IMG/VR virus record: IMGVR_UViG_3300030294_000125
Coordinates: 1 to 30,974 of that record
Length of the DNA: 30,974 nucleotides
Source: a virus
Direction: 5' to 3' (one strand)
The translations under genes and the position numbers were made by a program. Below are positions 6,979-30,484 of this stretch, one piece after another. Numbering within the stretch: the stretch's first letter is position 1; each line of letters begins with the position of its first letter. The notes below the pieces were generated by a model, which was not told the DNA's origin, searched no databases, and worked only from the letters and a program-made list of their open reading frames with translations.

Positions 6979-7070
6979 AAATTATTTAAAATTAAAGGTT
7001 AAAACTTTTATCTATCCTAATTTTTAGTCTTCCGTTGGAAAAGAGCCTTGGCTTTACCGGGTTAATGGAA

Positions 7071-7562
7071 TCAGAGTGTTACTGTTTCTATTTTAACCGT
7101 TGGGGTAGCGATGGTTTTTTCAGTAGTAGTTTTGGCATCTTTCACACAGCAGAGGTAGTCCGTGTAATAGCATACATGCTTGGGGTAGTATTCGGGTCGG
7201 TGCTCCACCATCCGGGTGAGTTGAGAAAATATGTTGTAACGCTGACCTTCCAGGTTTTGAAATACTTCATCTACTTTATCCAGTAGCTTGAGGCTTTCGG
7301 TTTCCATCACCGAGTCGTCCACCGAATCGGTAGTCAACCCGAAATACAGGTAAGCCCTTACCGTAAGTTCATTAATTTGAACATCTTTCAGGATATTGGA
7401 GAAATCGATGTTCCGAAATTCAAAAAGCAAAGCAGGCGTTGGCGGTGAGTAGGTATCAGACAGTCGTCTGAACTGGCCTTTCTGAAGGTCGATATATGCC
7501 AAGTCTGCAATGTTGCTTTTTGAAATACTTTTTAGCTGTTGATATAATGTGCTTCGTTTCAT
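7071..7562 (-). CDS. Putative tail completion/terminator protein
   Basis: A 163-aa protein. The first gene of the tail operon, transcribed towards the sheath. The N-terminus (MKRSTLYQQLKSISKSNIAD, then LAYIDLQKGQFRR) and the central segment (PALLFEFRNIDFSN, INELTVRAYLYFGL) have the strand-helix alternation and length of tail-terminator/neck proteins that cap the tail and connect it to the head. The helix LKLLDKVDEVFQNLEGQRYN is also typical. The assignment is by position and pattern, not by a signature motif. In an intact phage, head and connector genes should precede it; here the upstream DNA is an accessory cassette instead. Confidence 0.45.
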   Translation of the reverse strand: MKRSTLYQQLKSISKSNIADLAYIDLQKGQFRRLSDTYSPPTPALLFEFRNIDFSNILKDVQINELTVRAYLYFGLTTDSVDDSVMETESLKLLDKVDEVFQNLEGQRYNIFSQLTRMVEHRPEYYPKHVCYYTDYLCCVKDAKTTTEKTIATPTVKIETVTL

Positions 7563-7643
7563 ACGCTATTTAATTCGAAAACAAATTAAATGAAAAAAAA
7601 ACGACTGAAAAAACAGTAAGTTGTTGATTCAAAGTGTGTTTTG

Positions 7644-7671
7644 AATGATTAAATGAGCTCATTTAATCATT
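7644..7671. promoter_or_regulatory. 28-bp perfect palindrome upstream of the contractile-tail operon
   Basis: A perfect 28-bp dyad centred on GAGCTC (half-site AATGATTAAATGAG), 82 bases before the start at 7562 and followed by further ATTAATCATT half-repeats. It has no T-tract, so it is more likely an operator for a dimeric regulator than a terminator. No clear TAnnTTTG box was found between it and the gene. The rest of 7563-7840 is AT-rich without a gene. Confidence 0.5.
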
Positions 7672-7840
7672 AATCATTGAATGGGAGGGTAGGTGTTTAA
7701 TAATGAACTATTTAGGATGGATGAGCTGATTTCTTATCATCTGTTTTTCCTGAAGGGAAAATAATATCCTTCCGTGCCGAGTATATGAAATAATTTTTGT
7801 AACTTTACAGTATATTGTACTGTAAATATATTTAAAACAT

Positions 7841-7871
7841 TTTGCAGAATAGTGAAAGTGTTATATATTTG
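7841..7871 (+). promoter_or_regulatory. Bacteroidota-type promoter for the DUF6169 cassette
   Basis: TTTG at 7841-7844 and TATATTTG at 7864-7871, separated by 19 bases, match the -33/-7 consensus (TTTG, TAnnTTTG) of the Bacteroidota primary sigma factor. The first start codon downstream is at 7961, giving a leader of roughly 85 bases. Confidence 0.6.
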
Positions 7872-7960
7872 TCTTCAAAAATTAGGTATAAGGTTTAGGG
7901 TGATGTAGCTATTTATATTAAAATGGCTCTCTTTTATTCATTATAAATAAAACGACCATG

Positions 7961-8104
7961 AAAACAATTAAAAATAAACCAAAGAATCTTCTTGTGAAAA
8001 TATTAGAAGATAAAAAGGCTATACAGGAATGTATTCGTAATAAAGGGGATTTAAATCAATTAGCAAAAGACCGTGAAATTAAATTCTCCACTCCCATATA
8101 AAGT
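7961..8104 (+). CDS. Small protein upstream of DUF6169 gene
   Basis: A 47-aa protein starting MKTIKNKPKNLLVKILEDKK and ending LAKDREIKFSTPI. It is basic and helical. The motif of a cysteine-containing IQECIRNKGDL followed by KDREIKFSTP resembles small proteins I have seen next to DUF6169 genes in Bacteroidota. It overlaps the following gene by 32 bases in another frame, so the two are almost certainly one transcription unit and translationally coupled. No function is known; a regulatory or antitoxin-like partner role is only a suggestion from the small-plus-larger gene layout and the location in a phage accessory region. Confidence 0.65.
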
Positions 8105-8534
8105 AGAAAAAAAAGACGACAGATATTATTTCATAACGATAAGCGGTGTAATTTACACCGCTTATTTTATTGAAATTAATTTCATATCGGGAGTTAATCT
8201 TTATTCATTCTCTTTTGAAACTGATGGGGAAAGACCTCGATATGATGAACGAATATCTATAACTATAATAAATATTCTGCATAAATTCTTTCAAAACAAT
8301 TCTAACGCTCTAATTTTCGTGTGCGAAACTGACGGACAGGAAAGATGCCGGATGCGTCTTTTTGATAGTTGGTTTATGAAACATAGTGAAAAAGAAGAAT
8401 TAGTGAAAATTGATACGGAGGAGTCATTTCCTGATTACAGTCTGATTGCATCTATTATAATGCACAAAGAAAACCCTCAAGTTGAGGCTATACCCGCTCT
8501 TCTTAATGAATATATTGATACAATGAGGTATTAA
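8073..8534 (+). CDS. DUF6169 family protein
   Basis: A 153-aa protein with a GTG start at 8073 inside the upstream small gene. It shows the features I associate with DUF6169: an N-terminal PYKVEKKDDRYYFIT strand pair, a GVIYTAYFIEINF strand, then an RYDERISITIINILHKFF helix. Next come ALIFVCETDGQERCRMRLFD and a conserved aromatic WFMKH. The C-terminus is ordinary (ASIIMHKENPQVEAIPALLNEY). Soluble, no signal peptide. The biochemical role of the family is unknown. It forms a two-gene unit with the 47-aa protein and is oriented against the phage genes, as expected of a self-contained accessory (moron) cassette. Confidence 0.65.
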   Translation: MKLNSPLPYKVEKKDDRYYFITISGVIYTAYFIEINFISGVNLYSFSFETDGERPRYDERISITIINILHKFFQNNSNALIFVCETDGQERCRMRLFDSWFMKHSEKEELVKIDTEESFPDYSLIASIIMHKENPQVEAIPALLNEYIDTMRY

Positions 8535-8539
8535 CATTA

Positions 8540-8617
8540 TATCAGCTCCGTTTTTTTCTTCCCGTAAGCTCCGTTTTCGTTGATGATTCTCCGCCAGTGC
8601 AAAATCAATATTTTTTT
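8540..8617 (-). pseudogene. Truncated copy of the HTH-like phage gene at 9557-9775
   Basis: Bases 8540-8588 match 9563-9611 at 48 of 49 positions. After a 14-base deletion the similarity continues (CTCCGCCAG and GCAAA) to about 8617. On the minus strand the copy encodes remnants of the 72-aa protein's C-terminus (DFALAEN, then K-rich). It has no start region, so it is a decayed fragment. It forms a direct repeat with the intact gene and brackets the DUF2335 cassette. Confidence 0.75.
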
Positions 8618-8638
8618 CATTCGGCATTTACAATAAAA

Positions 8639-8660
8639 AAGCCCGCTTGGGGGCGGGCTT
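8639..8660 (-). terminator. Rho-independent terminator of the DUF2335 cassette
   Basis: An 8-bp GC-rich stem (AAGCCCGC paired with GCGGGCTT, loop of six) followed on the minus strand by a run of T. It lies about 50 bases after the DUF2335 gene. Confidence 0.8.
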
Positions 8661-8713
8661 GGTATGGGTGATAATCAATTTAATCAGACCGGGTTAAAAG
8701 TAAAATACTGATT

Positions 8714-9151
8714 TTACTTCTTATTGTTTTGATGAATTTCTTTTTTTTTATTTGAAGAAGCTCTCACAAAAGATATTCCGGCAAAAACAATAGTAGCACC
8801 GGCAAAGATGGTACCTTCAGTTTGTAGTTTTTGGCATATCAAAAAAACGGAAAAAAACATTCCACTCAAAATCACAATAAGAGCGAAGGATAAAGCTCTT
8901 TTGTTATAACTATGGGTTTCAGTTACATCTTTTTTTACTAAATCGATACGTGCATCGTTAAAACGTATTCTAGCATCTTGTTCTTTTTCCGTGCGTTCTT
9001 TTATCCACGTTATTATATCAGGATCTAATTCTTTTAATTTTGCTAATTCTTCGGCAGGTGGTAACAGGCTATCGTCAACTATAGTATTTTGTTCTAAAGT
9101 TGTTAATCCATTTTGCTGTTTAAGCTTATTTTGTTGAGCTTGCTTAGTCAT
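8714..9151 (-). CDS. DUF2335 family membrane protein
   Basis: A 145-aa protein. The first 45 residues are Gln/Thr/Leu-rich and disordered. Residues 35-75 hold an amphipathic stretch (LKELDPDIITWIKERTEKEQ then ARIRFNDARIDLV) that matches the DUF2335 pattern. Two membrane segments follow: about 84-104 (ALSFALIVILSGMFFSVFL) and 112-130 (GTIFAGATIVFAGISFV), with a basic tail. The function of DUF2335 is not established; these small inner-membrane proteins occur often on phages and plasmids. The ATG overlaps the end of the preceding small gene by eight bases, so the two are coupled. A membrane-acting toxin or exclusion role is possible but not shown. Confidence 0.65.
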   Translation of the reverse strand: MTKQAQQNKLKQQNGLTTLEQNTIVDDSLLPPAEELAKLKELDPDIITWIKERTEKEQDARIRFNDARIDLVKKDVTETHSYNKRALSFALIVILSGMFFSVFLICQKLQTEGTIFAGATIVFAGISFVRASSNKKKEIHQNNKK

Positions 9152-9362
9152 AATTCAACAATTGCTTAGCCTCTTTTGTAGCCTTTTTAAAGTCTTTTTC
9201 TATCTTCAATACATCACTTCTCATATTTATTCTATCTTGTCTATTATTTATATAATTTAAATTTTTGACAGAAGAATAAATATCAGATATAAGAGGGTCT
9301 TTTGATAAAGACTTTGGCTCAAATACACCAGAAATTTTATCTAAACACACCATTAAGGACAT
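9144..9362 (-). CDS. Small protein coupled to DUF2335 gene
   Basis: A 72-aa helical, basic protein beginning MSLMVCLDKISGVFEPKSL and ending KKATKEAKQLLNYD. An upstream ATG at 9422 would add 20 residues, but a TAnnTTTG box (9384-9391) lies inside that extension. The ATG at 9362 is 22 bases downstream of the box, so I prefer it. I do not recognise the family. The central segment (DIYSSVKNLNYINNRQDRIN) looks helical. It overlaps the DUF2335 gene by eight bases, which suggests a functional pair, perhaps with this soluble protein controlling the membrane protein. Confidence 0.55.
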   Translation of the reverse strand: MSLMVCLDKISGVFEPKSLSKDPLISDIYSSVKNLNYINNRQDRINMRSDVLKIEKDFKKATKEAKQLLNYD

Positions 9363-9383
9363 ATTCTTGTTTTTTATTTTTTG

Positions 9384-9391
9384 CAAATGTA
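9384..9391 (-). promoter_or_regulatory. -7 promoter box of the DUF2335 pair
   Basis: On the minus strand TACATTTG matches TAnnTTTG. No clear TTG at -33 was found. The position supports translation from 9362 instead of the longer frame. Confidence 0.4.
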
Positions 9392-9556
9392 CAATTAGTT
9401 GCATAATATTGAAACTTTTCATAAACTTAATTTTAATCGTACAATTAATTTTAACAAGAGAATTTGCTTTGAAAGTTGTAACAACTTTTCATTGAATTTG
9501 TTTACCAAGATATTTTCACACTGAACCCTAAGCCCTGTTTTACTTCCGGCAGCTAT

Positions 9557-9775
9557 TCAATTTATCAGCTCCGTTTTTTTCTTCCCGTAAGCCCCGTTTT
9601 CGTTGATGATTTGCGCAATCGTGTTCTCCGCCAGGGCAAACTCATCGATCAGTTTTTCCATTACTACTTCGTATCGCAAACCGCTGTTGTACAGTTTGGC
9701 AAATTGAACCTTGATGCGCTCGTTTCTACGCTCGCGGGCTTGAGTTACTCTTGAGTTTTTGTTTGTTCTAGGCAT
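9557..9775 (-). CDS. Phage-type small HTH-like protein
   Basis: A 72-aa basic protein (MPRTNKNSRVTQARERRNER at the start) whose second half (LYNSGLRYEVVMEKLIDEFA then LAENTIAQIINE) has the helix-turn-helix rhythm of sigma-4/MarR-like recognition modules. Small proteins of this type occur in Bacteroidota phage late regions, and a 74-aa protein of similar layout is at 19420-19644 in this window. It may bind DNA as a regulator or packaging accessory; neither is shown. The direction is the same as the phage operons. A truncated duplicate lies about 1 kb downstream. Upstream (9776-9900) there is a tandem AACAAGGAT repeat but no strong promoter. Confidence 0.6.
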   Translation of the reverse strand: MPRTNKNSRVTQARERRNERIKVQFAKLYNSGLRYEVVMEKLIDEFALAENTIAQIINENGAYGKKKTELIN

Positions 9776-10451
9776 TGATTTTAATTTTTTTTCTTAAAAT
9801 ATTGTTTCCGAATGTTTTTAGGATGTGTTAAAAACGAAAAATAACAAGGATAAACAAGGATGGACGAAAAAAACGAACTTTATCGTTTTTTATAAATCTA
9901 AAGGAAATAAATAACTTGTGCAAGGGGTGGGGAGAAGAAAATTAGCCAATTAGCCAATTAGTCAATTAGTCAATTAGTCAATGTGCCGATGTGCTAATTA
10001 GCCAATTAAAGAATGAAGAGAATTAAGAAAATAGAGGAAAAATAAGTGTCGGTGGTGCCGGTGGTGTCGGTGGTGCCTGAGCGGAGTCGAAGCCAGCGAA
10101 GGTGCGAAGTCGAAGCCAAGACGATAAGATTAAACGCGAAGACGGAAAGACGCGAAGATGAAAGAGTAAAGAAAAACATAGACGAAAATAAAGATTGTTA
10201 GCACATACCCATCTCCCCTTCCCGATAGCGAACGGGGAGGCAGGGGGAGGTCTGAAAAGAATAAACACTACCAAGCCCTGTAGCAGACTGCTTGCTTGCT
10301 GTCTGCTAGAAATCCATTCGTGTTTATTTGTGCTATTGGTGTAATTTGTGTTCCTGGTTGGTGCGATGTTGCAAATCGTGTCTGTAACTAATAAGATAGG
10401 ATAGCACGGTTTTGGAAAACCGCACGAGCGGGTACTTACTATATTATACAC
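9776..10451. repeat. Gene-free stretch made of dispersed and tandem repeats
   Basis: No convincing gene. At 9941-9980 there are five tandem 8-bp units (ATTAGCCA/ATTAGTCA). Bases 9991-10057 match 26690-26756 at 66 of 67 positions. At 10072-10092 lies one of four copies of a 21-bp motif containing CTTCGACTCCGCTCAGGCAC (here reversed). A GC-rich imperfect palindrome lies near 10208-10245 and a hairpin (AGCAGAC/GTCTGCT) near 10282-10308. These are typical Bacteroidota intergenic repeats. The remainder to 10637 contains the hairpin at 10452 and no supported gene. Confidence 0.6.
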
Positions 10452-10485
10452 AAACATTCCATATCTTAGCGGTATGGAATGTTTT
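10452..10485 (+). terminator. Repeated hairpin (copy 1), terminator-like
   Basis: AAACATTCCATATC pairs with GGTATGGAATGTTT (14 bp including one G-U) around a five-base loop, followed by TTTTATT on the plus strand. The 35 bases 10451-10485 are identical to 11719-11753. A third, variant copy is at 13829-13861. It lies about 150 bases past the end of the ART-like gene. Confidence 0.6.
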
Positions 10486-11777: not shown

Positions 11778-12305
11778 TCATTCATATATTGTTCCGGTTA
11801 TTTCTTCTTTATTTGCTGTTTTATTCCATCCAATAAAAGCATTCCATTCTTTCATCACGGTGTTTCCATATCCATTTTGCACTTGTATTGGAATAATTAT
11901 ATATATTTGTTCTACAGTATCTACTTTGCCTCCATTTACCCGTCCAACACTGCTTCCTTTAATGGGAGAATAGCTTACCCTGTTTTTCACCGACTGCATG
12001 GCCTGCGATGAAGCCGCAGCTATTTTGTTCATAAGAAACAATTCGATATGCTGCATCGATTTGTGGTCTGCCACGTATTTTGCATTTGCAGGGTTGGTAT
12101 AGGTTTCTTTTTCCCATTCTATATAAATAGTTGTCTGTTTTATCTTATCTATATTATCAATCTTAAAAGAGATGGGTACTTGCTCGCCTATGCCACTTTC
12201 TAAATAGGTGTGGAATACATTGGCCGTGTCCAAGTATATTTTTTGCGACTGCGCGCTTACTACGAATGGCAATGCCATTAATACAATGATTAATATTTTT
12301 TTCAT
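11778..12305 (-). CDS. Secreted protein of unknown function (paralogue 2)
   Basis: A 175-aa protein with a Sec signal peptide (MKKILIIVLMALPFVVSAQS, cleavage expected after SA). The mature part begins KIYLDTANVFHTYLESGIGE and carries a core strand pair (TTIYIEWEKETY) and a helix with DHKSMQHIELFLMNKIAAAS. A beta C-terminus with PIQVQNGYGNTVMKEWNAFI follows. About 60% of residues agree with the gene immediately upstream; the first 30 mature residues and the NGYGNTVMKEW segment are almost unchanged. No known domain recognised. It is likely periplasmic. The 18-base gap to the first copy indicates a two-gene operon formed by tandem duplication. Confidence 0.7.
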   Translation of the reverse strand: MKKILIIVLMALPFVVSAQSQKIYLDTANVFHTYLESGIGEQVPISFKIDNIDKIKQTTIYIEWEKETYTNPANAKYVADHKSMQHIELFLMNKIAAASSQAMQSVKNRVSYSPIKGSSVGRVNGGKVDTVEQIYIIIPIQVQNGYGNTVMKEWNAFIGWNKTANKEEITGTIYE

Positions 12306-12323
12306 GATTAGCTATCTTTTAGT

Positions 12324-12851
12324 TTATTGATCGTAAGCCATTCCTCTTATTTCTTCTTTATTTTCTAATTTATTCCATTCAATGGAACCACGCCATTCCT
12401 TCATTACCGTGTTTCCATATCCATTTTGAGCTTGTATCGGAATATCTATAAAAACATATTCTATAGTGTCTGATTTTATACTCATTACACGCCCAATACT
12501 CCCCTTTATAGGCGAATAGCTTATGCTGTTTTTCATTGACTGCTTAGCTACAGACGATTCTGCTTCTATTTTTGACATTAGAAACATTTCTATATGCTGC
12601 ATTGACTTATGGTCGGCCACGTATTTTGCATTCGCGGGGTTAGCGAACGTTTCTTTTTCCCATTCGATATAAACCTTACACAATTTTATTGTATCTATAT
12701 TTTCAATATTAAAAGAGATCGGTATTTGTTCACCTATGCCGCTTTCTAAGTAGGTGTGAAACACGTTGGCCGTGTCTAAATATATTTTTTGCGACTGCGC
12801 AAACAAAGCTAACGGCAAGATTAATAAAACCAGAAGGAATGTCTTTTTCAT
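12324..12851 (-). CDS. Secreted protein of unknown function (paralogue 1)
   Basis: A 175-aa protein with a signal peptide (MKKTFLLVLLILPLALFAQS). An ATG at 12887 in frame would add 12 residues but lies within the TAnnTTTG promoter box, so 12851 is chosen; this also gives the same length as its tandem paralogue. The mature sequence shares KIYLDTANVFHTYLESGIGE, NPANAKYVADHKSMQHIE and NGYGNTVMKEW with paralogue 2 and differs mainly around residues 60-70 and 110-135. No recognised domain. A duplicated exported protein next to phage genes may be a moron that changes the host surface, but this is not supported by any motif. Confidence 0.7.
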   Translation of the reverse strand: MKKTFLLVLLILPLALFAQSQKIYLDTANVFHTYLESGIGEQIPISFNIENIDTIKLCKVYIEWEKETFANPANAKYVADHKSMQHIEMFLMSKIEAESSVAKQSMKNSISYSPIKGSIGRVMSIKSDTIEYVFIDIPIQAQNGYGNTVMKEWRGSIEWNKLENKEEIRGMAYDQ

Positions 12852-12880
12852 AATATTGTTTTTTTTGGAGATTTCGAATG

Positions 12881-12888
12881 CAAACATA
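12881..12888 (-). promoter_or_regulatory. -7 promoter box of the secreted-paralogue operon
   Basis: TATGTTTG on the minus strand (12888 to 12881) matches TAnnTTTG and lies about 30 bases before the ATG at 12851. It decides the start choice. It is divergent from the plus-strand promoter at 13036. Confidence 0.55.
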
Positions 12889-23104: not shown

Positions 23105-23268
23105 GGGTTAATGGTTGGAGCCTCCCCCAACCCCTCCTCCCGATAGCTATCGGGAAGGGGTTGGGGGTGAATTATCTTTGTTCTTAGCGTCCTAGCGGCT
23201 TTGCGTTTAATGTTTTGTTTTTATTCTTAAAGCCCCTTCGGGGGTTGGGGGCTTGTCTTTTCTCTTTT
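23105..23268. repeat. GC-rich palindromes in the leader of the neck/tail operon
   Basis: A long hairpin at 23124-23167 (arms CCCCCAACCCC... and ...GGGGTTGGGGG around CGATAGCTATCG, with a two-base bulge) and a smaller GC-rich palindrome at 23231-23256. Between them is the dispersed motif TTAGCGTCCTAGCGGC/TTTGCGTTTAAT. This insertion places about 160 bases between the promoter element and the first gene. Confidence 0.7.
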
Positions 23269-23356
23269 AACTAACAAATATACGACATTTACCCTGTAAA
23301 ACAAAGTTAAATTATTGATATTCAATTTGTTATTTGCAAAATGTAATTGCATTTTG
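23269..23356 (-). promoter_or_regulatory. Shared phage promoter element, copy 2 (neck/tail operon)
   Basis: On the minus strand this contains TATATTTG with TTG 19 bases upstream, the Bacteroidota -7/-33 layout. It aligns without gaps to 26501-26588: 21 bases around the -7 box identical, 14 bases different, then 16 identical (AAGTTAAATTATTGAT as read on the plus strand). A partly conserved upstream part with two TTTGCA/TTGCA units follows. The conserved upstream part is a candidate binding site for a phage activator. Confidence 0.7.
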
Positions 23357-23957
23357 CGGATGGAAAATGATTAGCCGATATGCTAATGTGGAAATTAGCC
23401 AATGTGCAAATGAATTAAAGAAATGAAGAACATGATTAAACGCGAAGACGGAAAGACGCTAACAAAGAAGGCGGGAACGCCATGTAGTGACAGCTCGTGA
23501 GCTGTCTGTAGAAAATTAGCGAACGGGAGGCGAGCGTGTGTATAGACGGTGCGTGCACCGTCTGACCAGGGGTTACCGGGACGCGGGTTTCCAACGCCGG
23601 GCGGGGCTGTGCTTTGATGGAACACGAATTACACAAATAGACACAAATGAACTTGAATTATTATTCCTTTGCGGCTTCGAGTCTTAGCGTTTAATCTTCT
23701 TCTTGTCTTTATTCTTTGTTCTAATATCTTGTGGAACCCTCCGGGTTCGGGATGTGTGCGTTTGCGTATACCCCGCATTGCATACGGGGTTATCGTTGTT
23801 TCCCCCTCCGGGGGCTTGGCTCAATGTGGAACACGAATTACATAAATAGACACAAATGAACTCGAATTATTATTCCTTTGCGGCTTCGAGTCTTAGCGTT
23901 TAATCTTCTTCTTGTCTTTATTCTTTGTTCTTTGTTCTTTGCTATTTGCTCTGATTT
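23357..23957. repeat. Gene-free stretch of dispersed Bacteroidota repeats
   Basis: No gene supported. A 105-base direct repeat occurs at 23618-23722 and 23827-23931 (two differences; starts TGGAACACGAATTACA). Hairpins of the GACAGCT/AGCTGTC and GACGGTGC/GCACCGTC kind lie near 23489-23510 and 23545-23566. A palindrome GTATACCCCGC...GTATACGGGG-like unit occurs near 23766-23792. Open frames here read through repeats and were not accepted. Confidence 0.65.
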
Positions 23958-24410: not shown

Positions 24411-24768
24411 TTTAATTCATAATTTTTAATTCATAATTCGTAATTGAGAATACGGAAGACAGAAGTTAAAGAAGTTAAGGAAGTTAAGAAGTTAGCCCCC
24501 CGCCTCCCGATAGCTATCGAGAAGGGGGGATGGGTTTGTTTATTAGTTTTTATTCGTTCGCATTTGCGTGTTTTATTTTTTGTTTATTTCTTCTTTGCGA
24601 CTTCGAGTCTTAGCGTTTAATCTTTCTTTACTTTCTTTCTCCGCTGCCTTCGACTCCGCTCAGGCACCACCGCCACTCATTTTTCCTCTATTTTCTTTGT
24701 TCTCTTTCTTCTTAGCGACCTTGTGTCCTAGCGTTTAATCTTATTGTCTTTCATCTTTGCTCTTTGCT
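24411..24768. repeat. Gene-free stretch between terminase and structural genes
   Basis: Nothing coding. It contains tandem GAAGTTAA-type units (24462-24493), a GC-rich palindrome around CCCGATAGCTATCGAG (24497-24530) and a copy of the 21-bp motif with CTTCGACTCCGCTCAGGCAC (24648-24668). Two TTAGCG...GTTTAATCTT dispersed units are also present. Portal and capsid genes would be expected here in an intact phage; none is present. Confidence 0.65.
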
Positions 24769-25944
24769 CTAGTATGATATTTTCCGTATTCCCCCACTTT
24801 GGGGTTTTATGCTGAGTTTGTTTAGTGCCACGTAGCGGAGGGCATCCAGGAGGTGGTTGTAGCTGTCAATGGGTTCGTTGGTGGGGTGGCCGTTTTTGTC
24901 GGTTTTCCATTTGTAGGCGGTGAGTTCTTTCCGCAGGTTCGTGGATTGGCGGGTTACGTTGAGGTGGTAGCGTTTCAGGATGTCAATGCCGTTGAGTATG
25001 CTGTCGGGGCCTTTGCGGGCGGGTTCTACTTTTAGTTTCTGGGCTTTTAGTTCAGCTATGCTTTTGGGCTCGGCGCAGTCGGCTATAATCTCGTGGGTGT
25101 GGAGCTCGTTGCGTGTTATGCTGTCTATTATGCGGCTGTTGAGCATGCCGGTAGTGTATTCTATTTCGTTGAGCCAGAGCTCACCTTCGCTGAGCATCAC
25201 GTCGATGATGGCCGTGGGGTCGTTGGTGAAGCCGAAATCGAGGCCTATCCATCGTTTCTTGTATTGGTCGGGCATCTCGTCCACCAGGCTCCAGTCGGTG
25301 TAAATCTGCCCTTCCAGTTTTCCGGTAAGCCCGCGGGCATATACTTTCCATAGCTCTTTGTCTTTTATTTCTTCTATCCGCTGGTGCTGTTCGGGGGTGA
25401 GGTAGGGGTTGTTGCGGTGGTCGGAAATGATGAGTTTCACGTCCGGCTTGCCTACCATGTCGTGCGCCCAGAAGCGTGCGGTGGGGTTGTAGTCGATATA
25501 CACTTTTTTGCGTGTGCGGATCTCGAGCTGGAAGTAGATGGGGTACTGGATGCCGTCGGCTTCGTTCACGAATAGGTAGTCGCGCTTGCCGCTTTTGGCG
25601 TCTTGCTCATCCTGATAGGAGTTGAATTCTATCACGGAGCCGTTGTGGCAGGTAAATAGGCGATCGGTTTCGTTGGGTTTGGCTATTGTTTCGCGGTATA
25701 GTGGTGAGTTGCTCCATATTTGTTTGGCATCGCGGTAGGCTCCTTTTTTGAGGTTGGGTATGTCTTGGCCGACTACGGTTATTACTTGGTTTTGTTCGCG
25801 TGTGGCGAGGATGAACAGCACGTCGAGTATGGTGTATGTTTTTCCGCTGGAGGTTCCTCCCTGGTTGATTATGATTCGTTTGTCGGTGTTTAGGTTTTCA
25901 AAAAACAAAGGTGGCTTGTGTAGTGTGATCTTGTTTTTGCTCAT
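24769..25944 (-). CDS. Terminase large subunit
   Basis: A 391-aa protein, complete. ATPase domain: Walker A GGTSSGKTY at residues 29-37, followed by the ITVVGQDIPNLKKGAYRDAK segment. A Walker B-like YLFVNEADGI lies near residue 125. Nuclease domain: GLDFGFTNDPTAI near residue 228 with the first catalytic Asp, DCAEPKSIAEL near 290, and a final LLDALRYV with the last acidic residue. It belongs to the large PBSX/Terminase_6-like group. The enzyme packages DNA into capsids using ATP and cuts the concatemer. It overlaps the small terminase gene by 47 bases. All motifs look intact, though no portal or capsid gene follows. Confidence 0.9.
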   Translation of the reverse strand: MSKNKITLHKPPLFFENLNTDKRIIINQGGTSSGKTYTILDVLFILATREQNQVITVVGQDIPNLKKGAYRDAKQIWSNSPLYRETIAKPNETDRLFTCHNGSVIEFNSYQDEQDAKSGKRDYLFVNEADGIQYPIYFQLEIRTRKKVYIDYNPTARFWAHDMVGKPDVKLIISDHRNNPYLTPEQHQRIEEIKDKELWKVYARGLTGKLEGQIYTDWSLVDEMPDQYKKRWIGLDFGFTNDPTAIIDVMLSEGELWLNEIEYTTGMLNSRIIDSITRNELHTHEIIADCAEPKSIAELKAQKLKVEPARKGPDSILNGIDILKRYHLNVTRQSTNLRKELTAYKWKTDKNGHPTNEPIDSYNHLLDALRYVALNKLSIKPQSGGIRKISY

Positions 25945-26467: not shown

Positions 26468-26500
26468 GGTGTGTGGTGTTTTTTCGGTGTTGTCTTTTTT

Positions 26501-26588
26501 AACTAACAAATATACGACATTGTTTTTAAAATGTCAAGTTAAATTATTGATTGTGAGTGTGTTGTTTGCAGTTTGTATTTGCATTTTG
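26501..26588 (-). promoter_or_regulatory. Shared phage promoter element, copy 1 (terminase operon)
   Basis: On the minus strand: TATATTTG (26514 to 26507) preceded by TTG at 20 bases. Upstream is a block shared with 23269-23356 at the same spacing. The transcription start would fall near 26500, so the first usable start codon of terS is 26467. Confidence 0.75.
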
Positions 26589-27100
26589 AGAATATGGGAG
26601 AATAAAGAGCAAAGAATAAAAATGAAAGACTATAATAAAGGTTAAACGCTAAGACGGAAAGGCGCAAAGAGGAAAGACAATTAGCCAATGTGCTAATTAG
26701 CAAATTAAAGAATGAAGAGAATTAAGAAAATAGAGGAAAAATAAGTGTCGGTGGTGGCTGTGGTGCCTGAGCGGAGTCGAAGGCAGCGAAGCCGAAGCCA
26801 ATACAATAAGATTAAACGCGAAGATGCTAGGACGCTAAGAGGAAAGACATGGAATGAGGGGAGGGGAACACGAATTACACGAAGGACACAAATGAACACA
26901 AATGATTAAACGCGAAGGGGCTAGAACGCAAAGAATAACCACACTTACAGGCAAAAGAAGCGACTGCTTGGATAGAAACAAAACTCAACCCGGCGGGCTG
27001 TAAACAATGCTTAAGTTGATGAATGATGTAGGTGCTAATGGATAGGTAGTTAGGGGGTTTGAAAAGTACACTAGCAGATAAAAGCAAAACTACAACATTG
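26589..27100. repeat. Gene-free stretch of dispersed repeats
   Basis: Bases 26690-26756 match 9991-10057 at 66 of 67 positions. The 21-bp motif lies at 26762-26782. A unit GGAACACGAATTACACGAAG with CACAAATG repeats lies at about 26867-26910. No gene, and no strong terminator for the 646-aa gene that ends at 27101, was seen. Confidence 0.6.
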
Positions 27101-29041
27101 CTATTTTACATTAATAGTTATTGGTTGTTTATCTTCTGTTTGAGGTTTATCCTTTTGAATATAAATAGTATCTGTCTTTTGTTTCTCTGAATTATTTATA
27201 GTCTTCATTAATGGAAATTTAAAATAAAGCAAAAAACTTAAAAACAATACAAATAAAACAAAGAATAAAACGGCAAAAAATCTTAGCTTATGAAAATTAA
27301 AGACTTCTTTATAGTCTTTTTTGGTTGTAACAAATGGAGAAACAATAAGAAGCAATGCTAAAAATAATAAGAGAACAGTCCCTAACGCGGATGAATTTAC
27401 TATTATTGATAAAAAATTAGAGCCTTTGTTTGCAACAAATATATTAACAGAGCCAAACAAAAAGGTAATAAGACCCGTGAAGATTCCAAGAATTTCAAAG
27501 TTTCTTTTTAACGCTGATTCAATTTCACTTTTTGTATTTTCAATGCTCTGTTTTACTTTTGAGAAATCAGAACGTTGGGACAAATTCTCTTGTAAAAAAT
27601 CAAAACGTTGGGATAAATTCTCTTTTTTACGTCTTGATTCATCTAAATAATTATCCTGTTCTTTGTAATCGATATATTTGGCAAAAGTTGATGGACAATA
27701 TACACTTATACCATTTATTTCAACCAATGATTCTGAAAATGGGAGTTGAAACGGAAAGAATTTATGATTCTTACTCCATTTGATAGAGTCTTCATATTTT
27801 TTTAATAAAGAATTAAGCTCACTAAATTTATCATCAATAAGGCTACTATAATCTCCTTTTTCTAAATGTGAATCCAAACATTTAATTATTGATTCTATTG
27901 CTTTTTCAAAAGGATGAAAATTTCGTACATCCGTTTTATTGTGCAGTTCTGTAATTTTGTTGATTTCTTCTTTTAGCTCTTTAAGTTGAAGTTTTCCATG
28001 TGTGGACAAAAACGAAAATCGACAATTGTATAGAAAATTTTGGACAGTATCCCATGAAAATTTATCGTGTTTGTCTAATAAATTAGTTGATTCTGATAAT
28101 CTTCTAACTGCAGAATCGTATTTTTTGTCAAATTTACTAATGACTTTATCCATTTTTTTATCAACATCCTTTTTGTCTTTAAGTGTTTGATAATGGCGCA
28201 TCAATAAAATATAAGAAGATAAATTGTTCGATTCAGAATTAATGTCTTTTTTCCATTTGTTTATTTTATTCTCATCAATTTCAATATCCTTATCTTGGTC
28301 AAATAATTTTGTTAATTCAAAAAAATCTTTGAAGTTGTCTATTTCTAATGAGTCTGGATTGTTTTCTCTGGTTACAAAGTCAAGAGAGAAAAAGAAAACG
28401 TCTTTTTTTATCCTTTTAATAATAAAATGACATTTATATAAAAGAATATTATAAATATTGAGTAATTCTTTTTTGTCTGCTGCTACTATATTTCTAATTT
28501 TATTTTCAATGTTAGTTTTGATGCTAAGAAGATCTTGAAACTTGTCATCATTAGATGGAAATTGGTAATCAAATTTACATATAGGAATACATAAATTGAT
28601 AAAATCATCTAATCTCGAAGGTGTAGTAGATGTGTATGTGCTGTAGATGCCAAAATCATTGCTATTATCTTTTGTGTCAACTTTTTGCTTAGCATATATT
28701 TGTACACGTTGAAGATGCCTAATTGAGTTAAATAAACTCTTATTTATCTCTTGTATGCGGTTGTTAATAATTGCTTTTTTCTCATCGTCATCTATAGAAT
28801 ATTCACGTGATATAGCGTTTAAAAAAATAGTAATGTCATTATTAAACGTATCCGAATAAATATATTCACCACATAAAATTGATTTTGAAAAACAAATAAA
28901 GCTGTTTTCTATAAAAGAATCTAAATTATTAGAAACAGTTCTATATGCAACATCATCACTAAAATCTATAGTCTTAGTCTCTATATTAGTTGATTCAATA
29001 TATTCATCATAACATTTTTGTATGTACTTTTTTCTTTCCAT
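27101..29041 (-). CDS. Large protein with C-terminal membrane segments (candidate effector of Panacea system)
   Basis: A 646-aa protein I do not recognise. Residues 1-480 are helical, highly charged (Lys/Asp/Asn) and AT-coded, with no P-loop, nuclease or protease motif that I can see. At about 470-490 there is a duplicated 11-residue unit (ENLSQRFDFLQ/ENLSQRSDFSK), then a short coiled coil (QSIENTKSEIESALKRN). Three hydrophobic segments follow: ILGIFTGLITFLFGSVNIFV, SALGTVLLLFLALLLIVSPF and LRFFAVLFFVLFVLFLSFLL. The tail is polar. The layout, a large soluble sensor-like part with a membrane anchor, fits membrane effectors of bacterial defence systems. Its start follows the Panacea gene stop by four bases. 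A toxin role is inferred from context. Confidence 0.6.
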   Translation of the reverse strand: MERKKYIQKCYDEYIESTNIETKTIDFSDDVAYRTVSNNLDSFIENSFICFSKSILCGEYIYSDTFNNDITIFLNAISREYSIDDDEKKAIINNRIQEINKSLFNSIRHLQRVQIYAKQKVDTKDNSNDFGIYSTYTSTTPSRLDDFINLCIPICKFDYQFPSNDDKFQDLLSIKTNIENKIRNIVAADKKELLNIYNILLYKCHFIIKRIKKDVFFFSLDFVTRENNPDSLEIDNFKDFFELTKLFDQDKDIEIDENKINKWKKDINSESNNLSSYILLMRHYQTLKDKKDVDKKMDKVISKFDKKYDSAVRRLSESTNLLDKHDKFSWDTVQNFLYNCRFSFLSTHGKLQLKELKEEINKITELHNKTDVRNFHPFEKAIESIIKCLDSHLEKGDYSSLIDDKFSELNSLLKKYEDSIKWSKNHKFFPFQLPFSESLVEINGISVYCPSTFAKYIDYKEQDNYLDESRRKKENLSQRFDFLQENLSQRSDFSKVKQSIENTKSEIESALKRNFEILGIFTGLITFLFGSVNIFVANKGSNFLSIIVNSSALGTVLLLFLALLLIVSPFVTTKKDYKEVFNFHKLRFFAVLFFVLFVLFLSFLLYFKFPLMKTINNSEKQKTDTIYIQKDKPQTEDKQPITINVK

Positions 29042-29045
29042 TCAG

Positions 29046-29615
29046 TTATGATTGGGGAATATATCCGTAAAATTTATTCCGATCGTTTCTAATTTCTTCT
29101 GAGGTTATTTTATATGCTTGTTGCCCCATTAGTTGAGCGAAGTTATAAGCAGAAATCCAGCTATCCCATTGATGAGTGATTTCCACTAGATCAAAAGCAT
29201 TCAGCGTAATGAGTTCTGAGTTAATATTTTTTATTTTATTGACTGATTTTTCTATTTTGAGTTGAAGTTCCTTCTCTAACGTTGTTAAACCAGTATTTTC
29301 TTTTATACTTATTTTTCTATCTGTTATATCGTAATTTGGTAATTCATTGCTATTCATTGCATTATACACATCACTTTCAACTGGTCCGTAAGGGAGTGCA
29401 CGAAAATCGTCAAAAATATCCAACAAGTCGCTCTTATCATCTTTATCATCTGTTTTTGTTGCCGCTGTAAGAAAAAGTAATTTTAGCAACGAAAGCTTAG
29501 TGAACGCATTGGTAAATGCGTCATCTTTTCCTGTTCTCTCTTTGTACCAACCCGCAAAAAGTTCAACTAAATAATTGAACGATAGTGCTTTTATATTGTT
29601 TTTAGATAAATCCAT
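29046..29615 (-). CDS. Panacea-domain protein (DUF4065/SocA/GepA-like), candidate antitoxin
   Basis: A 189-aa protein. Residues about 15-60 give the opening helices (FNYLVELFAGWYKERTG, then LSLLKLLFLTAATKT). These are followed by the hallmark FRALPYGPVESDVYNAM, matching the YGPV.S.VY motif of Panacea domains. The C-terminal part (LNAFDLVEITHQWDSWISAY, then QAYKITSEEIRND) also fits the family, where an L..LT/H..W helix ends the domain. Panacea domains act as antitoxins neutralising many unrelated toxins, or as proteolysis adaptors (SocA). It is the first gene of a two-gene operon, directly before the 646-aa membrane protein. Promoter with tandem repeats upstream. Confidence 0.75.
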   Translation of the reverse strand: MDLSKNNIKALSFNYLVELFAGWYKERTGKDDAFTNAFTKLSLLKLLFLTAATKTDDKDDKSDLLDIFDDFRALPYGPVESDVYNAMNSNELPNYDITDRKISIKENTGLTTLEKELQLKIEKSVNKIKNINSELITLNAFDLVEITHQWDSWISAYNFAQLMGQQAYKITSEEIRNDRNKFYGYIPQS

Positions 29616-29693: not shown

Positions 29694-30484
29694 ATGTTAT
29701 GTCCATAAATATCCACGTTTATTTCCATATTTCCCAGCCATACCGAAGTTCTCCGTTAAGTGTAGGCTCTGCCCATAACCTACGCCGAACATAAGTTATC
29801 GTTTTAAATTTTTGCAGACAGGTCGCAACCTCTCACTAGGGACTTTCCCGCCTTCGTTCTTAGCGTCCTCGTGCCTTCGCGTTTAATCTTATGTGTCAAT
29901 TTGTGTCCTTCGTGTAATTTGTGTTCCAGCATTCAGCACCGAGGCATTTGTGGAAGCCTAACCCCTCCGCTTCGCTCGTCCCCTTTAGCAAAAGAGGACA
30001 ATATTTGTACTAGCTGCGCAATAGTACCTGTAAGAATGCTTGTGCAAATTATTCTTCCCTATTGATAAAGGGAAGTACCCGTAAGGGGGATGGGTTAGAA
30101 TAATTGATAATTCATAATTGTTTAGTTGTGTTGCCCTCCGGGCATTTTCTTTCGCAGCTAGAACACAAATTACACGAAGGACACAAATAAACACGAATGA
30201 ATTTCTAAGAGACAGCTAGCAAGCTGTCTCTACGCAGGCTTTCCCGCTTTTATTCTTCGCGTCCTCGTGCCTTCGCGTTTAATCTTATTGTCTTTCTTCG
30301 CTGGCTTCGACTCCGCTCAGGCACCATAGCCACCGCCCGCAGGTATTCTCCCGGTATTTTTTAATTATTTTAATTTTCTTCATTTCTTTAATTCATCAGC
30401 TAATTAGCACATCGGCACAGTTGCACATTGTCGTTGCTCTTTATTCTTTAACATTTTACACTCTTCATTTAAAATCGGATTTAT
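29694..30484. repeat. Gene-free stretch of dispersed repeats
   Basis: No gene supported. Contains TTAGCGTCCTCGTGCCTTCG and GTTTAATCTTAT units (near 29858-29892 and 30256-30290), CGTGTAATTTGTGTTCC and its reverse (near 29910-29926 and 30162-30180), and a GAGACAGCT/AGCTGTCTC hairpin (30210-30229). A 21-bp motif copy lies at 30305-30325. Short frames here cross repeats and are not accepted. Confidence 0.6.

Follow-up and report, generated by a model that had tools for sequence, protein, structure and literature searches.

Genes of the DUF6169 family (Pfam PF19666) are almost always accompanied by a small adjacent partner gene. We gathered relatives independently of the small gene, by a DUF6169 scan of genome contigs (best 80 of 95 relatives retained) and by running the PF19666 profile over genomes, and recovered an adjacent homologous partner at 113 of 127 held-out full-length DUF6169 genes in cross-validation. 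None of 21,876 frames that do not adjoin DUF6169 reached the partner level (best E 0.018, in locus L040). A sequence-only reading of one such locus, in a virus record, had raised the idea of constant pairing with a small protein, and these counts bear it out. The opposite picture, with DUF6169 mostly partnerless and in core chromosomal positions, does not hold: pairing is near-universal, and the family is patchy and non-syntenic. The comparison of gene neighbourhoods across Bacteroidota that had been proposed as a check likewise placed similar copies in different neighbourhoods. We infer a toxin–antitoxin role as the best reading of the pair. That the locus is a mobile, translationally coupled, type II toxin–antitoxin-like module, with DUF6169 as the candidate toxin and carried here as phage cargo, is a proposal to which we give an even chance.

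The cassette and its setting in the window

The window is the whole 30,974-base virus record that was analysed (IMG/VR IMGVR_UViG_3300030294_000125). Its minus strand carries a tail sheath gene and a large terminase gene. The cassette is encoded on the plus strand, between ORFs at 7071-7562 (minus) and 8714-9151 (minus), with the following features in and around it.

7841..7871, plus strand: Bacteroidota-type promoter-like sequence TTTG-19-TATATTTG, a pattern match 86 nt upstream of the small-gene ATG
7958..8101, plus strand: small partner gene, 47 aa, ATG start; candidate antitoxin with the C-terminal tail IKFSTPI
8073..8101, plus strand: dual-coding overlap of 29 nt, small-gene stop codon included
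8073..8534, plus strand: DUF6169 gene, 153 aa, GTG start; candidate toxin with a predicted GNAT-like fold
8540..8588, no strand assigned: copy of a 49-bp repeat, matching 9563-9611 at 48/49 positions, the latter in the 3′ part of ORF 9557-9775 (minus)
8639..8660, minus strand: terminator-like hairpin for the opposing strand, adjoining the cassette

The sequence-only reading had described a 47-aa gene and a GTG-started DUF6169 gene running against the phage operons. Both genes are confirmed, the first as an ORF that is real by homology, conservation and selection, the second as a gene starting at GTG 8073 whose product matches PF19666 (E 6e-17; 61.9 bits vs a cut-off of 27), and the phage-assigned proteins tested nearby all lie on the minus strand. 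Two measurements needed correction: the small-gene ATG is at 7958, 3 nt away from the 7961 first given, and the overlap is 29 nt (8073-8101) instead of 32. The DUF6169 reading frame opens at 8064, and in the window GTG 8073 is the sole ATG, GTG or TTG of that frame within the small gene. The promoter, described as canonical, is present as a pattern at 7841-7871, but the match is not significant alone, because four occurrences in the window compare with 1.5 expected and 13 of 100 shuffles also reach four. A hairpin scan of positions 7000-10200 found no terminator for the cassette itself.

The GC content of the cassette is 31%, vs 43% for the structural block, and the ORFs at 8714-9422 are as AT-rich as the cassette (GC 29.5%). 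The nearer copy of the 49-bp repeat begins 5 nt past the DUF6169 stop codon and, judged from its sequence, may be a recombination scar at the cassette edge.

Other parts of the window contain features of separate interest. A 211-aa ORF at 10638-11435 matches PADLOC PD-T4-9_A (E 9e-7) and phrog_14664 (E 1.5e-14); a 53-aa ORF of the same strand lies before it, and the two may make up a second two-gene cargo unit of the phage. At 27101-29615, a Panacea/SocA-domain gene (189 aa; PF13274, E 2.7e-8) is followed after 4 bases by a gene of 646 aa with no family over its cut-off, a possible Panacea-type toxin–antitoxin pair. DUF4065 proteins, named with SocA, also partner some GNAT toxins, according to PMC9177977. 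Tandem paralogous ORFs of 175 and 187 aa occupy 11778-12887, their DNA 77% identical over 495 bp. Dispersed repeats of roughly 30–250 bp (68–100% identity, some inverted) are found at 9976-10485, 23131-23940, 24496-24770, 26487-26935 and 29805-30419, mostly outside assigned genes.

The partner gene and the dual-coding overlap

Cross-validation was two-fold: partner profiles were trained on one half of the relatives and an adjacent homologue was sought in the other (E < 0.01), the halves being split by sequence, not by clade, with close relatives present in both. Identical DUF6169 DNA was counted once, and all but 2 of the 129 full-length rows could serve as held-out cases. The 14 misses comprise two truncated at the sequence end (L048 and L108), 11 in which a short ORF from a different sequence class takes the partner's position, and L097, which has only an unclear ORF there. 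The bare presence of a short upstream ORF discriminates poorly: under a loose positional criterion, one was found at 115 of 129 full-length DUF6169 genes and at 290 of 710 other genes.

We also ran the profile of class-A partners, the class of the window, alone over 296 genomes. Matches at E ≤ 0.5 occurred in 73 genomes, and five were clear of noise (E < 1e-9). Four of these lie beside DUF6169, three of them with partners in the training alignment, and the fifth is an orphan; the next-best match (E 0.0027) falls within a 266-aa frame. Among its matches clear of noise, this search, limited to class A and to the profile alone in the 296 genomes, found no other effector family with such a partner. 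The orphan is on contig C20 of genome G104, whose sole PF19666 match is on contig C75. Partner sequences differ strongly among clades, and partner class tracks the DUF6169 tree (8 changes vs a shuffled mean of 31.2, on a quick tree with weak deep nodes). At several loci, such as L006, L077, L137 and L150, a broken DUF6169 copy stands beside a partner that is still open. This asymmetry is weak, since the DUF6169 gene is more than three times longer, many loci come from draft assemblies, and L093 has a broken DUF6169 with no partner found. The orphan and the broken copies beside open partners are consistent with a toxin role for DUF6169.

Some loci carry more than one unit. At L063 (4266-4963), a divergent DUF6169-like gene with a partial profile match has a short overlapping upstream ORF of a third sequence class, and this unit lies close upstream of a normal DUF6169 pair, giving tandem divergent modules. 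For L084 and L070, two DUF6169 pairs are found within 0.3–0.8 kb of one another on one contig. On the phage contig L005 (5825-7761), the ORF after a DUF6169 pair resembles Panacea by eye, and a further ORF comes next.

Searches of Pfam, NCBIfam, PHROGs and PADLOC gave no family above noise for the small protein of the window, and those of Pfam and NCBIfam gave none for its class-A relatives. The window's small protein is 53% identical to the L127 partner, and a motif, DK..I...I..G..L..L...GIKF..PL, recurs in most rows across distant lineages. Selection was measured on relatives, the window's own class being too divergent for pN/pS. In 49 pairs of relatives (75–99% DNA identity), pN/pS is 0.13 for the small gene, and in the 33 equal-length pairs among the same relatives it is 0.09 for DUF6169. 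Among 15 independent pairs, pN is below pS for the small gene in 14, the exception being a pair 99% identical. These sequence comparisons indicate that the small gene is under purifying selection in the relatives. Together, homology, purifying selection and cross-validated pairing rule out a chance ORF.

The overlap follows a nearly fixed register. In the window, the DUF6169 Tyr9 codon TAT takes its third base from the first position of the small-gene stop TAA. Among 31 class-A rows, counted without thinning for relatedness, 26 end the small gene as xTA-TRA (TAA, TGA or TAG), so that the tyrosine codon TAT consists of the last two bases of the final sense codon and the first stop base; the exceptions are L135, L002, L106, L088 and L120. 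This tyrosine is present in 83 of 85 DUF6169 proteins. In 24 of the 26 register rows, the DUF6169 starts available within the small gene are limited to GTG or TTG. A TTG giving a 17-nt overlap occurs in 19 rows, from the phylum draw and the order of G104, and is made by the codons of an [FLI]-[AV] pair in the small protein. The window uses a GTG that gives a 29-nt overlap; of its six nearest relatives, five (L127-L129, L131 and L133) have this GTG available and the sixth, L130, has an ATG available. In the first set of relatives, mostly Prevotella-type and without L001 (a repeat of the window) and L086 (a repeat of L005), the commonest overlap is 4 nt (47 of 87 rows). Given the fixed overlap and the GTG- or TTG-only starts, DUF6169 is probably translated in a coupled manner with its partner and at a lower level.

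The same fixed overlap and weak start codons could be read differently, with DUF6169 as an ordinary accessory enzyme and the small ORF as a leader peptide that merely controls its translation. We consider this highly doubtful, because the small protein keeps conserved amino acids outside the overlap as well, for example at the D18-K19 columns, and because its low pN/pS in relatives comes from pairs most of which overlap by at most a few bases.

Distribution and genomic neighbourhoods

PF19666 is patchily distributed. It was found in 9 of 395 genomes of a Bacteroidota phylum draw, in 48 of 399 genomes of one family (47 over the cut-off) and in 18 of 201 genomes of another order (17 over the cut-off), counts that include centre genomes known to carry DUF6169 (G002; G001, in the family draw; G104). 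None of 14 control genomes had a match.

Similar DUF6169 copies often lie in different surroundings. A flanking cluster is shared by 6 of 62 pairs of copies that are 80–90% identical and by 9 of 21 pairs that are at least 90% identical, vs 4 of 5 and 21 of 21, respectively, for other gene pairs of the same loci, a small control from 8 locus pairs. Ten of 99 loci lack a called DUF6169 gene and were omitted, which leaves 89 loci for the flank counts, or 88 once L197, a duplicate of locus L055, is removed. No conserved third gene was seen at the 99 loci, where 684 of 799 neighbour clusters are singletons. The two largest clusters cover 10 loci each. One is SusC-like by eye; the other proved to be an artefact, formed by ORFs called antisense over DUF6169 in nine of the 10 omitted loci.

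We also assigned the 30 nearest flanks of 15 random loci at E 1e-5, of which two (L042 and L085, left) overlap the module on the opposite strand and may not be genes. Five are toxin–antitoxin-like or transposase genes, 13 belong to other families and 12 to none. The five come from four loci: L083 (HTH), L037 (HepT), L074 (nucleotidyltransferase and HTH) and L006 (IS66). With 5 of 30 flanks of this kind, a defence-island setting fits only partly.

Beyond bacterial genomes, relatives were found on one Spirosoma plasmid, on one IMG/VR contig and in two records deposited as fecal phage. One of these deposits, L004, may be chromosomal: its neighbours look glycosyltransferase-like by eye, and a Bacteroidaceae genome contains a nearly identical stretch. 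A scan of IMG/VR for close relatives with the window protein alone gave no match, and the stretches fetched from 18 sheath-related phage contigs contained no DUF6169. Four ORFs around the cassette, also tested, had no match in any of these 18 contigs, so no empty site could be demonstrated among them. The suggestion that the pair sits inside mobile regions thus stands in part: its distribution is patchy and non-syntenic, but most relatives fetched are on bacterial genome contigs, and only 4 of 15 loci are flanked by toxin–antitoxin-like or transposase genes. Patchiness, lack of synteny and ordinary flanks together argue for a module that is mobile and confined neither to phages nor to defence islands.

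These observations bear on the idea that the pair is an anti-phage module, found in phages and host genomes alike and acting in superinfection exclusion or abortive infection, in which the partner would regulate or sense. Its position in a phage record on the strand opposite the phage genes, together with its patchy, mobile occurrence in host genomes, would suit such a role, which is also compatible with a toxin–antitoxin mechanism. The empty result in the sheath-related contigs speaks against it, as does the search of PADLOC-DB 2.0.0, whose matches are spread over 12 families with none prominent, each family matching 1–3 of 85 members (best E 0.0012). We judge a primarily anti-phage module quite unlikely. 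Assignment of DUF6169 to a known defence family was rejected on the same scattered weak matches, at most 3 of 85 members.

Candidate function and comparison with known systems

DUF6169 was noted as having no known function, and its Pfam entry gives none; all 88 aligned relatives match PF19666, and we found no article naming DUF6169, PF19666 or DUF6934 in the open-licence part of PubMed Central. A model built from 85 sequences has a pLDDT of 89.8 and a pTM of 0.84. In a Foldseek search of the PDB, 29 of the 50 matches listed are acetyltransferases, the best being MesI, a CoA-dependent acyl-homoserine lactone synthase (E 8.6e-3). With VIA-align, 49 of the 50 listed are acetyltransferases and the other is phage Mu Mom; the best Z is 8.0 over 113 residues (3.3 Å), and models that lack a clear match typically reach a best Z of 7–8. 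With such values seen in the absence of kinship, the borderline scores of the model are only suggestive of a GNAT-like fold. The one sequence match to a solved structure was at chance level (E 0.08) and was discarded.

Conserved residues are concentrated in one region of the model. R93, F97 and W100 are invariant in 85 of 85 proteins, and D58 (84/85), T64 (82/85), D87 (82/85) and C84 (80/85) nearly so. By the order of elements in the model, this set falls where helix 59-75 begins, where strand 79-84 ends and within helix 90-104, the region in which GNATs hold CoA. In GNATs, the acyl-CoA loop [QR]xxGx[GA] lies between strand 4 and helix 3; the motif occurs in none of the 85 DUF6169 proteins.

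GNATs also carry helices alpha1 and alpha2 among their first strands, and the DUF6169 model has only strands before its first helix, 59-75. The partner is predicted to be a two-helix hairpin with a tail (pLDDT 81, pTM 0.52). On these models, the two proteins could form a split enzyme, the helical partner being an obligatory subunit of a GNAT-like cargo enzyme whose hairpin replaces alpha1–alpha2 in trans, and near-universal pairing would follow from such an arrangement. The strong divergence of partners between clades would be unusual for a structural part of a fold, however, and one orphan partner exists; a split enzyme seems unlikely to us.

A type II toxin–antitoxin-like unit fits a small, overlapping gene pair that is mobile, has partners that vary and keeps a conserved polar set in the larger protein. 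As in such systems, the genes are adjacent, co-directional, overlapping and co-inherited, and their distribution is patchy and mobile. Type II antitoxins usually, though not universally, have a DNA-binding domain, but among the 30 class-A partners searched no such family rose above noise, the best match being HTH_40 in one partner (E 0.096). The missing acyl-CoA loop, the borderline fold match and the ordinary genes at many flanks also count against this reading.

Under the toxin–antitoxin-like reading, the locus would be one copy of a mobile two-gene Bacteroidota module carried as cargo by a tail-sheath phage. Translation of the two genes would be coupled, with DUF6169 the more weakly translated, and the helical small protein would bind DUF6169 and keep it silent. 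Free DUF6169, through its Asp/Thr/Cys/Asp/Arg/Trp set, would modify or bind a cellular target and stop growth; a tRNA- or translation-linked target would suit, as for GNAT toxins. In the phage, the module might serve element retention or competitor exclusion. A bolder version, which we offer tentatively and lean against, holds that DUF6169 pairs form an undescribed Bacteroidota-wide family of overlapping, mobile toxin–antitoxin modules, in which a GNAT-like fold lacking the CoA loop performs new toxic chemistry on the Asp/Thr/Cys/Asp/Arg/Trp set, and in which the antitoxin tail, the weak toxin start and the near-invariant tyrosine share one dual-coding stretch. Should the toxin–antitoxin-like reading be right, a Bacteroidota-wide domain without assigned function would become a testable toxin family with its antitoxin already identified, and the fixed overlap, coding for both proteins, would clearly illustrate how toxin dosage is kept under antitoxin dosage. 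Toxin–antitoxin systems of Bacteroides and Prevotella have received little study relative to those of proteobacteria.

Three groups of proteins invite comparison. DUF6934 (PF22028) matches 15 of 88 DUF6169 proteins weakly by profile (best E 0.0025), and its RxRL[FY] stretch resembles that of DUF6169 by eye. It occurs in 9 of 198 genomes of the phylum draw and in none of 61 of the family draw. We rejected it as a sister module with the same partner, because its 16 loci have no consistent tiny overlapping partner, with the wrong frame probably picked at two of them (L207 and L213). Among phage proteins in BFVD, seven have a similar fold by Foldseek (E ≤ 0.001, best 5.2e-5, query TM up to 0.58), including the Alt RNA polymerase ADP-ribosylase of phage phiAS5 and a zeta-toxin-domain protein of Atu_ph07. 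They differ in size, four of the seven exceeding 570 residues vs 153 aa for the DUF6169 protein of the window.

The GNAT toxins of type II systems (TacT, AtaT, ItaT and KacT) are encoded, like DUF6169, in two-gene modules, and their likeness to the larger protein of the pair lies in the GNAT-like fold, with its borderline scores. DUF6169 differs in lacking the [QR]xxGx[GA] loop in 85 of 85 proteins. The partners of GNAT toxins are DUF1778 (ribbon–helix–helix) or DUF4065 proteins, as stated in PMC9177977, and neither family is among the Pfam matches of the 30 class-A partners at E 0.1. With these two defining features absent, we do not file the DUF6169 pair with the GNAT toxins, although those with DUF1778 or DUF4065 partners are its nearest precedent.
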